Below, one piece after another: positions 2,898-61,110 of a stretch of DNA of 64,000 nt (position 1 is its first letter; each line of letters begins with the position of its first letter). The stretch covers positions 496,001-560,000 of the forward strand of contig NZ_JIAF01000004.1 in the NCBI RefSeq assembly GCF_000688375.1. Direction: 5' to 3'. The position numbers and the translations under genes are program-made. This stretch comes from Prevotella sp. HUN102. GTDB lineage: Bacteria > Bacteroidota > Bacteroidia > Bacteroidales > Bacteroidaceae. Below the pieces are notes generated by a model. That model had not been told where the DNA came from. It searched no databases and saw only the letters and a program-made list of their open reading frames with translations.

Positions 2898-2937
2898 AAA
2901 TATCACGTAATATTCTTTCAAATATCACGTGATATTC
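2898..2937. repeat. Two-unit 22-bp palindrome array, family A
   Basis: Units AAATATCACGTAATATTC (2898-2915) and AAATATCACGTGATATTC (2920-2937) are separated by TTTC. The second contains the perfect palindrome ATATCACGTGATAT. The period is 22 bp. Sequence and spacing match the eight-unit array at 57833-58004. Confidence 0.85.
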
Positions 2938-9057: not shown

Positions 9058-9516
9058 ATCAAATTGTAAATATTATTGACGGAAAAACGATGCCTGAAAA
9101 TTTTCAATCCAGAGTTTGAAAGCCAATAATCCAACGATTTCCTCCTCGTTTTCCCATACTCATTTCTCAATTCTCCGAAGACCGTTTTGCATTTTTGCGA
9201 AGAATGCAAATCATTCTTGCGAAGAACGCAGTGCAATCTTCGCAAGAATGGATTGCCGGCTTGCGAAGAATGAAAGGCAGAATCTTGTTATATTTCTCTT
9301 ATTTTCAGGTCGTTTTGCGAACAATATCGTTTCTTTGGCAGTATGTCAAATAGTATAAAATTGATAATTCACTGTTAGTCAGATTGTTATAATCCTGCTC
9401 ATAATTCGCGTATTTGAAAATAAAAAATCCTTTGTTCAAAATAAACGAATTATGAAGAGGGGGTTGTCAAGATAATTCACAGCAAGCAGGGAGTTTGAAC
9501 ATAATGCAGTCATAAC
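9058..9516. other. Intergenic region with dispersed repeats
   Basis: The 459 bp lie between convergent genes and contain no convincing gene. 9067-9135 resembles 13310-13385. A four-unit palindrome array follows at 9189-9275. A 30-nt segment at 9398-9427 recurs with two mismatches at 29232-29261. Confidence 0.7.
9189..9275. repeat. Four-unit 22-bp palindrome array, family C
   Basis: Four imperfect palindromes related to CATTCTTGCGAAGAATG have centres at 9198, 9220, 9242 and 9264, exactly 22 bp apart. The core alternates between GCG and CGC. The first unit, GCATTTTTGCGAAGAATGC, is the best preserved. Related arrays lie at 13433-13493 and 50799-50881. Confidence 0.85.
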
Positions 9517-13432: not shown

Positions 13433-13493
13433 CATTTGTGCGAAGAATGCCGTGCAATCATCGCAGAAATGGAGTGCAAAGCTGCGAAGAATG
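13433..13493. repeat. Three-unit 22-bp palindrome array, family C
   Basis: Degenerate CATTCTTGCGAAGAATG units have GCG/CGC/GCG cores centred at 13441, 13463 and 13485, exactly 22 bp apart. The upstream 120 bp also resembles the flank of the array at 9189-9275, so the two are copies of a longer repeat. Confidence 0.8.
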
Positions 13494-25387: not shown

Positions 25388-25576
25388 AACGTCTTTAATT
25401 TGGTTGAATACATCCTATAACCTATCGTCGCTAACACGGGATCTGAGTCCCAACGAACTATCCAGATTTCAGATGTAAAGGCATGGGGACTGAACGTTGA
25501 ACCCGGCTTCATGAGCCACCAATTAATCGGTCTTTGTCCATGCCTATATCAAAGTTATAAATTATCGAATTATTAA
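25388..25576 (-). ncRNA. Non-coding 5' end of the IS110 element, candidate bridge RNA
   Basis: The 190 bp upstream of the transposase are non-coding and can fold. AGGCATGG (25479-25486) pairs with CCATGCCT (25538-25545) around a 51-nt region that contains a smaller GGCT/AGCC hairpin (25505-25517). GGGA (25438-25441) pairs with TCCC (25448-25451). IS110-group elements with the long non-coding segment 5' of the transposase encode a bridge RNA there. Identification is by position and fold only. The target- and donor-binding loops were not defined. Confidence 0.45.
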
Positions 25577-25614
25577 CCAACGTACAAATGTACGACCAAC
25601 GTACAAATGTACGA
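25577..25614. repeat. 19-bp tandem duplication at the IS110/primase junction
   Basis: CCAACGTACAAATGTACGA occurs twice in direct tandem (25577-25595 and 25596-25614). Each contains the palindrome CGTAC-AAAT-GTACG. The second copy supplies an ATG (25607) in frame with the primase. Confidence 0.85.
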
Positions 25615-25633
25615 CCAATTAAATATTACAGCA

Positions 25634-36020: not shown

Positions 36021-36128
36021 GTTCCGAGAATAGTTTCAAAGCTATGAGACAGTTGTTTCATAGCTTTGAGACAACTGTTTCATAATTATGAGACAATAGT
36101 TTCATAGCTTTGAGACAATTCTCGGAAC
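36021..36128. repeat. Four-unit 22-bp palindrome array, family B, with inverted flanks
   Basis: Four 18-bp units (GTTTCAAAGCTATGAGAC, GTTTCATAGCTTTGAGAC, GTTTCATAATTATGAGAC, GTTTCATAGCTTTGAGAC) start at 36033, 36055, 36077 and 36099, each followed by 4 bp. Each unit is an imperfect palindrome. The array is bracketed by GTTCCGAGAAT (36021-36031) and its exact inverse ATTCTCGGAAC (36118-36128). Confidence 0.9.
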
Positions 36129-50504: not shown

Positions 50505-50798
50505 AGGTCTATAAATAATAATGTTATAAAATAGATTCGTTTTGCTTATCGCTTGTCTACGCACACATACAGCGATGGAACATAAATCTGCTGAACAGCG
50601 TCTGTATTGCAATTTTTAGCGACAGAATGCAAAGATAGAAACATTTAATTAAAAATCAAACATTTCTTTTGTTATTTTTACAATCTGACACATTTATGCG
50701 ATTTCCACAACCATATTAACATAAACCAAAATTCCACAAAAGAGGAATGGGAATACAGGAAATGGCAAGCGGATGAGGAAGGAAATTCAGTTGGTTTG

Positions 50799-50881
50799 CA
50801 AACGTGCGAAGAACGCATTCCATTCTTCGCAAAAACGCAACGCATTCTTGCGAAGATTGCGCCGCATTCTTCGCAAGAATG
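50799..50881. repeat. Four-unit 22-bp palindrome array, family C
   Basis: Units related to CATTCTTGCGAAGAATG have cores centred at 50807, 50829, 50851 and 50873, exactly 22 bp apart, alternating GCG and CGC. The last unit reads CATTCTTCGCAAGAATG, a near-perfect palindrome. Confidence 0.9.
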
Positions 50882-51032
50882 GAAAGCAGAGAAATAGTAT
50901 CTGATTATCAAACACTTACAGGAGTTGAATGATAATAATTTCTCAGCCTTGCTATTTTATCTCTCACAGATTGCACAGAAGCACAGAATTCATTTTTACC
51001 ACAGAGAATGCAAGGCATTCAAGGATGGCACA

Positions 51033-51208
51033 GATTTCCGTGTGCGAATGTGTGTTGCAGAATATCTTTTAAAAGATTGGTCCCGAACTCGGATAATATT
51101 TTCTTCATTGCTGCTTGATTTCCGTGTGCGAATGTGTGTTGCAGAATATCTTTTAAAAGATTGGTCCCGAACTCGGATAATATTTTCTTCATTGCTGCTT
51201 GATTTCCG
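51033..51208. repeat. 84-bp perfect tandem duplication
   Basis: An 84-bp unit starting GATTTCCGTGTGCGAATG occurs at 51033-51116 and 51117-51200, followed by the first 8 bases of a third copy. I see no differences between copies. It overlaps the end of a dispersed CACAGATT-family repeat. Confidence 0.92.
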
Positions 51209-56313: not shown

Positions 56314-56488
56314 GAGAGAGGGGACGAGGGGACGAGGAAACAAAGGAACAAGTAGGTTTCTTCATTTCTGTCCTTTCATTCACAGCCTGCCATTAGTTTT
56401 CGTGCAAGCACAAAGAATCTTACTTGCCCCTCCGCCTCTCGTCCCCTTTCCCATCTTCCACTTCCCATCTCCCATTTCCCATCAGCCA
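56312..56488. repeat. Purine-rich and pyrimidine-rich repeats between the M56 and TPR genes
   Basis: GAGAGGGGACGAGG repeats (56312-56352) are followed near the TPR start by CCCATCTCCCATTTCCCATC (56463-56483). The first contains GGGGACGAG and the second part CTCGTCCCC (56438-56446), so they can pair. Confidence 0.6.
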
Positions 56489-57430
56489 ATGAAGAAAACA
56501 ATATACATTCTCCTCGCTTTCCTTGCCCTCGCAAGCCATTTGCAGGCACAAAGCCGACAGACATTTATTGCCAAGGGAGACAGTTGCGTGAAGGAATACG
56601 ACTATCACACAGCCATCTTCCACTATCAGGAAGCACAGAAGATGAAGAACGATGCCGAGGTGCAGACGAAACTCGCCGACTGCCACTATCAAAGGAACGA
56701 ATACAGAAAGTGTTTCGACCTGCTGAACGGCATCAGCGAGGACAGTCTGAACCACGATATGATGCGCAAGAAATACTATCTGCTCGGAAATCTGAAGATG
56801 CAGGTGGAGCAAATATGGTGCGGCGTTGCCATCGTGAAGCGTTTTCCGAAGGACAGCCGAATCGTTGCCGACCTTATGAGGCTCTACATCAGCGATGATT
56901 TCTTTCAGCCCAACACGGCAATCCGATACGGAATGCAGTACTGCGCTCAGGATTCCACCAACAACGAAGTGAACCTTGCACTCGCCGAAGCATACTTCCA
57001 CAACAAAAAATACGAGGAATCCGTCGAAACCTACAAGAAGGTGTTTGCCAATAACGACACCACCTACACGGCTCTCTACTACACGGGCAATGCCTACGAA
57101 TACCTGAATCAGCCCGATTCGGCTGTGGTCTACTATCGGAAAGCCGTCGGACGCTATCCGCAATACGCCGTGGGCTACTATCGTCTGGGCGTTGTGGAAG
57201 CGAATCTGGGATATTCCGAAGCAGCCGTGGCGCATCTTCAGCAAGCCGTGGCTCTCTACGAACCGAGCAAAGCCATTATGGCTATCATCTACCGGAATAT
57301 GGGCGATGCAAAATACAATCTTAAAGATTATGAAGCTGCAGATGCCTATTGGGAAGCCGCACTGAGCTATTCGCCCAATGAGGAACTGGAACGGAAGCGC
57401 GAGGAAGTGAGAAAAGAAGCAAGGAGATAA
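56489..57430 (+). CDS. Tetratricopeptide repeat protein, exported
   Basis: 313 residues from the ATG at 56489, giving a signal peptide (KKTIYILLAFLALASHLQAQ). The upstream frame start at 56402 is inside pyrimidine repeats. TPR-like helix pairs run through the protein: YDYHTAIFHYQEAQKMKNDA, AYFHNKKYEESVETYKKVF, YTGNAYEYLNQPDSAVVYYR and VGYYRLGVVEANLGYSEAAV. TPRs mediate protein contacts. The protein is periplasmic with no assigned partner. It is followed by a repeat-rich gap. Confidence 0.85.
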   Translation: MKKTIYILLAFLALASHLQAQSRQTFIAKGDSCVKEYDYHTAIFHYQEAQKMKNDAEVQTKLADCHYQRNEYRKCFDLLNGISEDSLNHDMMRKKYYLLGNLKMQVEQIWCGVAIVKRFPKDSRIVADLMRLYISDDFFQPNTAIRYGMQYCAQDSTNNEVNLALAEAYFHNKKYEESVETYKKVFANNDTTYTALYYTGNAYEYLNQPDSAVVYYRKAVGRYPQYAVGYYRLGVVEANLGYSEAAVAHLQQAVALYEPSKAIMAIIYRNMGDAKYNLKDYEAADAYWEAALSYSPNEELERKREEVRKEARR

Positions 57431-57740: not shown

Positions 57741-57832
57741 AAAACACAAAATGGCTGAATAATTATTAGCGCAACCACACACTTTCAAGTTCAGACTCAT
57801 CCTGAACTCAAGTTACTATATGATATTTATTG

Positions 57833-58004
57833 AAATATTACGTGATATTTACCAAAATATTACGTGATATTTACCAAAATATTACGTGATATTTACCAAA
57901 ATATTACGTGATATTTACCAAAATATTACGTGATATTTACCAAAATATTACGTGATATTTGCTAAAATATTACGTGATATTTGCTAAAATATTACGTGAT
58001 ATTT
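57833..58004. repeat. Eight-unit 22-bp palindrome array, family A
   Basis: Eight identical 18-bp imperfect palindromes AAATATTACGTGATATTT start at 57833, 57855, 57877, 57899, 57921, 57943, 57965 and 57987. They are separated by ACCA (first five) or GCTA (last two). A decayed ninth half-unit, TGATATTT (57821-57828), keeps the 22-bp register. A two-unit relative is at 2898-2937. Confidence 0.95.
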
Positions 58005-58165
58005 ACAGTTCATCCCTGCAAAAAATGCACTACATTCTTCGCACGCTTGAAAAAGGAAAAATATCCATTGCTTTTCAACGACTTGCAAAACACGCAATAT
58101 TGCTCATATTATGCAAGTCCAAACCGCCACTCTTCCCCAACAAAAGAAAGGGAATTGCCTTCCAT

Positions 58166-58231
58166 CTCACATTTCCCATTTCCCATCTCACATTTCCCAT
58201 CTCCCATTTCCCATCTCCCATTTCCCATTAT
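58166..58231. repeat. CATTTCCC/CATCTCCC short tandem repeat
   Basis: CATTTCCCATTTCCCATCTC and variants repeat about nine times with a 7-bp period, ending at the stop codon of murI. Similar tracts lie at 56446-56483 and 61041-61110. Confidence 0.8.
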
Positions 58232-59070
58232 TCCAAATCCAAATGCTCCACTTCGATATCATCGTGTAGGAAGATGCGTGCACTTTCCTTGAACTTCGTT
58301 TCGTTTTCCGTAGTGCAATAGCGAACCGTGCCACCCTTCGTACACAAACAATCCATTTCCTCGTGCCGGGCAAGATAACTCTTCAGGCTCTCGGCAACAT
58401 ATTCGCCCTGTGGGACGATGCGGATACCTCGGGGAACGTACTTCAGAATCTTCGGCATCAGGATGGGATAATGCGTGCAGCCAAGAATGAGCGTGTCTAT
58501 TTCCGGATCCTGCTGCAAGATGTGATCGATGCGCTTCCGAACGAAATAGTCTGCCCCGGGGCCGTCTGCCTCATTGTTCTCGATGATGGGCACCCAGAGT
58601 GGACAGGCAACGCCCGTTACCGACACGTCGGGCCACAGTTTCTGAATCTCCATCGTGTAGCTGTTGCTCTTCACGGTGCCCTCGGTAGCCAACAGGCCTA
58701 TATGACGGCTGTTGGTCAGTTCGCCGATGATTTCTGCCGTAGGACGTATTACGCCCAATACGCGGCGCCGGGCATCAATCCGCGGAAGGTCGTTCTGCTG
58801 AATGGTGCGGAGGGCTTTCGCCGAGGCTGTGTTGCAACCGAGGATTACCAACTGGCAACCCATATCGAAGAGCTTCAGCACGGCCTGTCGCGTGAACTGA
58901 TAAACCACGTCGAAAGAGCGCGAGCCGTAGGGCGCACGGGCATTGTCGCCAAGGTAGATGTAGTCGTACTGGGGCAACAACTGTCGGATTCCGTCGAGAA
59001 TGGTAAGCCCTCCATAGCCGGAATCGAAAACCCCGATGGGACCGGGAGATTGAGAATAGGTCTGCCTCAT
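58228..59070 (-). CDS. murI: Glutamate racemase
   Basis: 280 residues, producing D-glutamate for peptidoglycan. GVFDSGYGGLTILDGIRQLL (catalytic-region Asp), LGDNARAPYGSRS, VILGCNTASAKAL (first catalytic Cys, about residue 78) and DTLILGCTHYPILMPKI (second Cys and His, about 195) are canonical. Its start lies 7 bp after the stop of the last skp-like gene, so it is cotranscribed with it. The downstream end runs into a pyrimidine-rich tandem repeat. Confidence 0.95.
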   Translation of the reverse strand: MRQTYSQSPGPIGVFDSGYGGLTILDGIRQLLPQYDYIYLGDNARAPYGSRSFDVVYQFTRQAVLKLFDMGCQLVILGCNTASAKALRTIQQNDLPRIDARRRVLGVIRPTAEIIGELTNSRHIGLLATEGTVKSNSYTMEIQKLWPDVSVTGVACPLWVPIIENNEADGPGADYFVRKRIDHILQQDPEIDTLILGCTHYPILMPKILKYVPRGIRIVPQGEYVAESLKSYLARHEEMDCLCTKGGTVRYCTTENETKFKESARIFLHDDIEVEHLDLE

Positions 59071-60911: not shown

Positions 60912-61040
60912 TTGAATATTCATTTTTAATTCCTCCTTGATTTTATTTCAATTAGATGGAAAGAGATTGAAAAGGTTTGGTCGGGAAAGAACATATTGGC
61001 ATAAGCCTCTATATCTTATTCCTTTCCCTTCTCTCCTTAC

Positions 61041-61110
61041 ACATTTCCCATCTCACATCTCCCATTTAACATCTCCTATTTCACATTTAACATTTCACAT
61101 CTTCCATTCC
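61041..61110. repeat. CATTT/CATCT short repeat between bamA and skp
   Basis: Repeated CACATTTCCCATCTCACATC-like units, more decayed than the tract at 58166-58231. It lies at the 3' end of bamA. Confidence 0.65.

Follow-up and report, generated by a model that had tools for sequence, protein, structure and literature searches.

Porphyromonas is a member of the Bacteroidales, and a repeat from this genus is a near analogue of the arrays considered here. BrickBuilt, a MITE of P. gingivalis, consists of 23-nt tandem units with no spacer, present in 1 to ~23 copies at 19 loci (PMC4596501). It is always intergenic, with mixed housekeeping neighbours and predicted stem-loops, and has a leader and a tail with IS5-type terminal inverted repeats (PMC4596501). 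A second point of comparison is provided by REP/BIME and REPIN sequences with RAYT transposases, which are palindromic, extragenic, clustered units (PMC3733652).

The window analysed here is a stretch of 64,000 nucleotides from Prevotella sp. HUN102, corresponding to C4:496001-560000 of a 3.32-Mb genome designated G000. One intergenic region of the window contains the array under study and a remnant of F1 (TGCATTCTTCGCAAGAATGCA with a GCG/CGC middle), the commonest array family of this genome. The features of the region and its flanking genes are:

56489..57430, plus strand: TPR protein gene (protein family match), left neighbour, 3' end towards the array
57789..57807, no strand: small stem-loop GTTCAG...CTGAAC directly left of the array (from the letters; paired in the predicted fold)
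57811..57828, no strand: decayed ninth unit, in register, 13/18 positions matching (letter comparison)
57833..58004, no strand: the 18-bp palindrome AAATATTACGTGATATTT in eight identical copies, 22-bp step, 4-bp spacers (letters and Tandem Repeats Finder, TRF)
58016..58051, no strand: F1-like remnant of about one and a half units (ATTCTTCGCACGCTTG; by eye)
58146..58163, minus strand: terminator-like stem plus T-run between the murI end and the array (consensus match only)
58228..59070, minus strand: Asp/Glu racemase family gene (protein family match), right neighbour, 3' end towards the array

The eight units start at 57833, 57855, 57877, 57899, 57921, 57943, 57965 and 57987, all exact, and are separated by ACCA five times and then by GCTA twice. 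TRF assigns the array a period of 22 and a score of 323, with 96% matches and 0 indels. A sequence-only reading of this DNA had described both the eight exact copies at 57833-58004 and the decayed unit that keeps register at 57811-57828, and both are confirmed. All eight palindromes are imperfect, with T at position 7 and G at position 12 unpaired. From its family and gene size, the right neighbour is presumably glutamate racemase (murI); the array lies 381 bp from the 3' end of the TPR gene and 222 bp from that of murI. Because the F1 remnant adjoins the array, two array families occupy one intergenic region.

Five other loci of the window carry arrays in the same geometry:

2897-2942, no strand: two units (2898..2937) of the same palindrome as the AAATATTACGTGATATTT array, 22-bp step (TRF and letters)
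9188..9275, no strand: F1 array of four units in 22-bp register, both unit orientations
13439..13493, no strand: degenerate F1-type array (TRF period 22)
36029..36120, no strand: third family, GTTTCATAGCTATGAGAC, four units in 22-bp register (TRF and letters)
50797..50884, no strand: F1 array of four units in 22-bp register

The sequence-only reading had counted these five loci and credited all of them with other sequences. All are present; three are F1 and one is GTTTCATAGCTATGAGAC, but the locus at 2897 belongs to the AAATATTACGTGATATTT family and has the same palindrome.

Further repeats in the window include tandem 7-bp repeats of the CCCATTT/CCCATCT type (56448-56483, 58162-58229 and 61040-61108), which are non-palindromic and have higher periods of 14 and 21 bp. 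An 84-bp unit forms two exact tandem copies at 51033-51208 (TRF: 2.1 copies, 100%), and ACCAACGTACAAATGTACG, at 25576-25618, is a 19-bp tandem repeat with an internal palindrome in 2.3 exact copies. Beyond murI, the segment 59078-63736 encodes three small secreted-type proteins with a Skp/OmpH-like chaperone look and a large BamA-like outer-membrane protein, all judged by eye.

Across the genome, the palindrome with the CACGTG core forms nine arrays of 2, 8, 4, 20, 6, 4, 5, 17 and 5 units (71 in total), and a search of the whole genome with up to two mismatches finds no site outside them. All 62 neighbour steps in these arrays are 22 bp and none is off-register. The 18-mer is near-invariant among units, the alternatives being C/T for position 7 and G/A for position 12, as detected by a regular expression that fixed ten of the 18 positions beforehand; many units, including all eight in the window's longest array, have an asymmetric core. 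Spacer positions are near random, at 1.8-2.0 bits each in the 37 units that differ within their own array. Every spacer is different in several short arrays, and spacers are nearly uniform in the long arrays of 8, 17 and 20 units (ACCA, CAGC and GAAA), which indicates that arrays grow by local duplication. From this pattern, what is common to the different loci is the palindrome and the step. Several families exist side by side in the genome, namely AATAT-CACGTG, F1, GATTACC, GTTTCAT and AAAAG types. L063:4372-4455 looks like the replacement of one family by another: next to a decayed AATAT-type unit, and 23 bp on from it, begins a row of AAAAGCTCTTAAGCTTTT-type units in 22-bp steps.

These arrays share with BrickBuilt a short tandem unit, close to two helical turns in length, as well as many loci, intergenic position, mixed neighbours and predicted stem-loops. 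The intergenic position holds without exception for all nine CACGTG arrays, and none of 70 F1 arrays overlaps a predicted gene. Unlike the 23-nt BrickBuilt unit, the 22-bp unit here is an 18-bp palindrome plus a variable 4-bp spacer; further differences are that many unlike palindromes share one step, that the core is lineage-specific and that the palindromes are constrained over the spacers. None of the nine CACGTG arrays has inverted flanks (150 bp on each side) above shuffles, 34 to 199 of 200 shuffles reaching the observed score. Since neither the unit length nor the ends of BrickBuilt are found, the 57833..58004 array is not filed as a BrickBuilt member; the resemblance to BrickBuilt is greater for F1, which has ends, than for this array. 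The sequence-only reading recognised no described element, a statement that needs amending insofar as BrickBuilt is a described near analogue. A literature search, mostly outside subscription papers, led to work on BrickBuilt and REP elements, and among the papers listed no description of 22-bp palindrome arrays in Prevotella or Bacteroides was noticed.

In 1.124 Mb there are 70 F1 arrays of at least three units, 59 of them with exactly four; units occur in both orientations, and core-to-core distances are 22 bp in 152 cases, 21 bp in two and 24 bp in one. The motif TGAWAATCA lies ~27 bp outside the array in 45/134 F1 flanks, often with TTTGTAA before it, and a looser count finds the end on one side of 48 of the 70 arrays, on both sides of one and on neither side of 21. 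These recurrent outer ends, conserved in part, mark F1 as a dispersed element. By eye, a similar end is present in two P. disiens arrays that have a different core. Along C4, F1 arrays are spread a little more evenly than a Poisson process would give, with a mean of 1.27 and a variance of 0.84 per 20 kb over 51 stretches.

The main rival to the explanation favoured below is that the arrays are dispersed, non-autonomous mobile repeats of MITE or REP type, BrickBuilt-like, with an internal palindrome minisatellite whose 22-bp unit was inherited from founders and is kept by copying, not by the binding of a protein. The defined four-unit form and outer ends of F1, and the similar end in P. disiens, are what such a repeat would leave. 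So are common flanks among the CACGTG arrays: two arrays have a long common flank (score 54.5 versus 15 for the best of 400 shuffles), and two more of 144 flank comparisons score 17, one of them between the 57833..58004 array and L062. Occupancy points the same way, in that the genome's own arrays lie in 73 of the 173 intergenic gaps of at least 400 bp in a sampled third of the genome, a figure raised by the length that arrays themselves add to gaps and by a few chance detections. Mobility is harder to reconcile with the failure of all nine CACGTG arrays to show inverted flanks above shuffles, with several unlike palindromes on one period, with palindromes constrained relative to spacers of the same element, and with 4/7 array loci of one relative (G130) having a counterpart among the six loci looked at in its sister (G017/P. 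falsenii). We consider the mobile-repeat explanation unlikely for the arrays as a whole; it perhaps fits F1 better than the CACGTG array.

The likeness to REP/BIME lies in the palindromic, extragenic, clustered units and, for F1, in the presence of units in both orientations. Unlike the variable spacing of REP/BIME, the step here is fixed at 22 bp. On a preference for convergent or tandem genes and their 3' ends the evidence is divided: arrays in G000 are neutral, F1 having no bias towards gene 3' ends, and in the GACGTC species 0/17 array loci are divergent. A RAYT transposase also counts among the missing parts of a mobile system: Y1_Tnp (PF01797) has 0 matches in this genome, and the control matches in 5/14 genomes.

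The sopC site of F is a plasmid partition array in which tandem dyad sites are read by a dimer, and the ends of Tn7 and Mu carry 22-bp transposase sites that are not known to be palindromic. Like sopC and iteron arrays, the present arrays are tandem dyad sites on which a cooperative nucleoprotein would be expected. Unlike them, they lie on contigs of chromosomal size (2.3 Mb here) and at nine loci. No rep or par gene is found among the CACGTG array neighbours examined. Iterons of plasmid type, one of the options offered by the sequence-only reading, are thus disfavoured by neighbours such as murI and the TPR gene and by the nine loci. The site length of 22 bp is shared with Tn7 and Mu, whose sites, unlike those here, are not known to be palindromic, and no transposase is found among the same neighbours examined.

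The 22-bp geometry is evident without reference to sequence when three (or four) dyads are required in register at a given step and no similarity between units is demanded. Across 393 kb, with 7 of its 21 stretches chosen because they hold or resemble the CACGTG palindrome, the three-dyad test yields 15 arrays at period 22, compared with 0-2 at other periods apart from the harmonics 33 and 44, and first-order Markov shuffles yield 0 arrays at period 22 in three runs. Comparison with shuffles was the check attached to the sequence-only reading, and 22-bp palindrome runs prove far commoner than other periods or shuffles. In 1.124 Mb of this genome, made up of the window and 53 position-picked stretches (13 + 40), the three-/four-dyad test finds 29 arrays at step 22, and other steps (15-43, harmonic 33 omitted) average 1.67 and reach 6 at most.

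The same geometry extends to relatives. Ten members of the genus, at 80 kb each, contain 21 arrays at step 22 versus 1.65 for the summed means of other steps, a count that includes AT-rich rows resembling chance (e.g. L109, L113 and L167); 9/10 have at least one such array and G064 has none. Among 24 Prevotella-type named murI loci of 20 kb (474 kb), nine arrays at step 22 occur in 6/24 loci, against a mean of 1.33 and a highest rival step, 18, with 6. The 56 other named murI loci (1.05 Mb, mostly Bacteroides and Phocaeicola) have 14 arrays at step 22 versus a mean of 2.22; step 23 yields 8 and step 21 yields 4. Bacteroides-type arrays at 23 or 21 bp include L247:15520, L231:16279, L234:2325 and L248:14616 (GAAATGCAGCATTTC, AAACGTACGGTGCGTTT, ATCGCAAGGCTTGCGAT). 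As several 21- and 23-bp arrays in these loci look like the same kind of array, what is shared may be a step near two helical turns, strictest at 22 in Prevotella. Five genomes from other families of the order (400 kb) have 0 arrays at step 22. When tandem identity replaces dyads, one 22-bp repeat is detected in outgroup G112, and single 21- to 35-bp repeats in G078 and G095, all without registered dyads.

The geometry is kept among relatives and the sequence is not. Palindromes of other genomes and families differ (TTTCATCATGATGAAA, GTTCCCACNGTGGGAAC, GTTTTGCATCGCAAAACC, GATTACCCAACGTGGGTAATC, CAATCCTGGCAGGATTG, AAATATGACGTCATATTT and others), and step 22 is common to even-centre palindromes (18 + 4 bp) and odd-centre ones (19 + 3 bp). 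The two-unit palindrome of 57833..58004 has 0 matches in 118 other genomes, its exact two-unit pattern has 0 in a contig collection possibly omitting this genome's records, and plasmid or phage records gave no match. The sequence-only reading had named absence from close relatives as a ground for refutation, and this check does not refute it: the geometry recurs, although this palindrome pair does not. The nearest named relative found is 82% identical in MurI, and no other strain of the species turned up.

A closer comparison is possible for the arms of the palindrome. A pattern with arms AATAT...ATATT, a free six-base core and two units at step 22, allowing at most one mismatch, matches 9/299 genomes of the genus: G000 61 times, G017 17, G130 14, G299 8, G232 4, G254 3, and G054, G015 and G279 once each. 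A backward control of the pattern matches 10 genomes 1-4 times, so that low counts mean little alone, and the matches in G232, G015 and G279 look like AT-rich chance. Among the matches listed, the core in G000 is CACGTG or a one-sided variant, with the single exception of C4:125380. In this exception (C4:125380-125417), an AATAT...ATATT pair lies 22 bp apart with cores CAACAG and CTGTTG, inverted to each other. Among the matches listed for other genomes, the core is GACGTC in G130, G299 and G017 (with one GATGTC unit), and also in the one pair of G054. The cores of a four-unit array in G254 are GTATAC, GATATC, GTACAC and GATATC. With the arms kept, the core differs symmetrically, C...G versus G...C, at many loci per genome.

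Some of these arrays occupy similar gene surroundings. A GntR-like/M13-peptidase-like gene pair (by eye) adjoins a AAAAGTACGTACTTTT array in G000 (L132:16196-16284) and AAATATGACGTCATATTT (GACGTC) arrays in G130 and P. falsenii (L304 and L209:15337). A pyrF-like gene (by eye) stands beside a GACGTC array in G299 and beside F1 in G000. In L305 and L309, from both sister genomes, about four more diverged units (AAGCATGACGCCATATTC type) lie in 22-bp register to the left of the GACGTC array. The idea of conserved 'slots' for arrays was rejected: the genome's own arrays already fill many gaps, 10/28 gene sides is no clear excess, some of these sides came to notice through the searches for murI and AATAT themselves, and L156, a third syntenic gap, has no array. 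The murI locus as a special site was likewise set aside as compatible with chance.

Orthologous arrays indicate where constraint acts. The sister genomes G130 and G017 were compared through eight neighbouring protein pairs, six of them 95-99% identical and two 85 and 91%; at one place the named P. falsenii locus L209 stood in for G017, whose murI-side array has identical letters. Seven G130 loci were fetched, and four arrays had counterparts among the six G017/P. falsenii loci looked at. Differing positions in these four arrays number 1/216 in palindromes, 4/32 in spacers and 82/695 in flanks, a flank set that includes some gene ends and, at one locus, more decayed units (Fisher, palindromes: p 2.6e-9 vs flanks, 0.001 vs spacers). 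The search located orthologous palindromes through their arms and tolerated a single mismatch there, which lowers their difference count, and for this reason the six core positions, free in the search pattern, were counted alone: 0/72 differ, p 4e-4 vs flanks. Within G000, the arrays of L057 and L060 are an old duplicate with a common flank; their palindromes differ at 1/72 positions and their spacers at 3/12, with no indel inside the array, and 130 bp of flank has 31 mismatches plus 8 gap positions. In these alignments the palindromes are thus constrained, with a constraint that stops at the palindrome edge and leaves the spacer free. Homogenisation by gene conversion could mimic this constraint.

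The same comparisons bear on the proposal that the arrays are neutral minisatellites grown by slippage. One orthologous pair differs by an extra 22-bp unit in G017, as slippage would produce, and the near-uniform spacers of the long arrays (8, 17 and 20 units) are in keeping with it. Slippage alone would not be expected to hold palindromes more constant than spacers, to settle many sequences on one period or to leave 0/62 steps off-register, and this origin is highly improbable.

We tentatively favour the explanation that the arrays are phased rows of sites for putative dimeric DNA-binding proteins. Several features together suggest a dimeric protein that reads DNA in rows on one helical face: the step, the symmetry, a constraint that does not extend beyond the palindrome, a spacer that varies freely and a core that differs symmetrically between lineages. 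Each array would be a row of high-affinity sites for a putative homodimeric, sequence-specific DNA-binding protein, with one dimer on each 18-bp palindrome. The 22-bp step, about two helical turns, would place the dimers on one face with neighbours touching, giving a presumed cooperative ribbon, and several such systems, each with its own palindrome, may operate in parallel in this genome. Arrays would gain or lose whole units. Lineages would change the palindrome core jointly across many loci, which is what a shift in the specificity of the reader should bring about. The sequence-only reading had suggested that a spacing of two helical turns and the palindrome are both under selection and that the sites are of dimer type, and the counts support it (29 vs 1.67 for the step; 1/216 vs 82/695 for the palindromes and flanks). 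The asymmetric cores in all eight units of the window's array, and in many others of this genome, count against sites for a dimer, as do the 23- and 21-bp steps that accompany step 22 in Bacteroides-type loci.

Gene context helps to separate a chromosomal role from a gene-by-gene one; gene predictions here are those of a simple hexamer caller, not an annotation. The nine CACGTG arrays lie between predicted genes that are convergent in three cases, tandem in four and divergent in two. Their neighbours have no common theme and include genes for Asp/Glu racemase, TPR, thiamin pyrophosphokinase, Ham1, M24 peptidase, RlmN, glycosyltransferases and TonB proteins, among others. Of 439 G000 gaps of at least 120 bp, 83 are occupied by its own arrays. 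For F1, 63 arrays (7/70 without two neighbours being omitted) comprise 35 tandem, 16 divergent and 12 convergent cases, close to the corresponding intergenic-length shares of 59, 25 and 16%. Since arrays lie between genes of any direction, an architectural role is likelier for the proposed ribbon than service as a promoter or terminator device, and it may fold, border or mark the chromosome. Neutral orientation, mixed neighbours and the many long gaps occupied likewise argue that the role of the arrays, with their putative protein and its cooperativity, is probably architectural.

A different proposal is that the dyads matter in RNA, as transcribed hairpin chains at gene 3' ends that serve as terminators, RNase shields or processing sites. 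The predicted RNA fold of the 57811..58004 array is strong (z -14.6), as expected for any palindrome row, and the lineage core difference keeps pairing. In the GACGTC species, 17 array loci are 8 convergent, 9 tandem and 0 divergent (three orthologous pairs counted twice), although 26% of intergenic length at these loci is divergent, and several arrays are less than 40 bp from a gene 3' end; both the lack of divergent loci and this closeness fit a transcript-level role. Bacteroides-type arrays have a median distance of 25 bp to 3' ends (11 distances) versus 94 bp to starts (9). On the other hand, arrays in G000 show no preference for gene 3' ends, F1 neighbours are neutral in orientation, and 9/51 other arrays are divergent, none of the four groups showing a significant deficit; this set used 17/24 Prevotella-type and 41/56 other named loci and omitted arrays overlapping predicted genes (2) or without two neighbours.

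Covariation and strand asymmetry also speak against RNA hairpins. The F1 alignment (A1) holds 43 of 50 oriented elements, seven irregular ones being omitted, out of the 59 four-unit arrays. In these 43 sequences both-side changes number 8 within units versus 9.3 in shuffles and 4 across spacers versus 6.6, and the covariation term of RNAalifold is -0.1. The across-spacer dyad pairs less than in 500/500 shuffles, with 1/24 column pairs forced unpaired by row orientation, and pairing drops when the partners are shifted by 1-3 columns, an outcome that every dyad would give. A strand-symmetric version of mutual information for F1 was set aside as confounded by element polarity. In four CACGTG arrays between plus-strand genes, 30 asymmetric units read C.A on the sense strand and 0 read T.G, units within one array not being independent; C.A rather than T.G on the sense strand means that the RNA pair is broken. 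Terminator-like sites number 2 in the 901 bp scanned around the array, where 0.6 are expected, with 0 at 57811-58004, and Rfam gives 0 matches at gathering score in the window. Chained 3' UTR hairpins, another option of the sequence-only reading, lose ground both through the absence of F1 covariation and of a 3'-end preference in G000 and because, on the murI side, the terminator-like site precedes the array. We regard RNA hairpins as quite unlikely.

The arrays might instead be operators of one local transcription factor, forming an ordinary regulon. Dyad sites and constrained palindromes would suit operators, and in three genomes an array has a GntR-like gene (by eye) next to it. The genes beside the nine arrays share no theme and take every relative orientation, and arrays reach 20 units, features that make a regulon improbable. 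For the favoured binding explanation, one reader considered was the DNA-binding HU-HIG (PF18291). Its genes start near CACGTG-type and AAAAGTACGTACTTTT-type arrays of G000 and near an array of G254, at these sites:

L060:3924-4034, with L060:4099-4602: HU-HIG/array site
L287:1500-1582, with L287:1711-2130: HU-HIG/array site
L333:1317-1405: HU-HIG/array site

An array is near 6/18 HU-HIG loci and near 179/706 genes. This is no clear excess of linkage, so HU-HIG as reader of the palindromes is a lead only.

For Prevotella, and less exactly for other Bacteroidaceae, a wider picture is possible, if doubtful: parallel chromosome-marking systems, each with a diverging putative dimer and its own palindrome in intergenic arrays of two-helical-turn step, in which palindromes are rewritten symmetrically and genome-wide as the reader's specificity changes, with arms-race-like turnover while the geometry stays fixed. 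If proteins read the arrays, chromosome organisation in Prevotella becomes directly testable, and the symmetric core difference between lineages would be a natural experiment in the co-change of a protein and its many sites. If the arrays are mobile repeats instead, they would be an example of a MITE within which helical phasing is selected.
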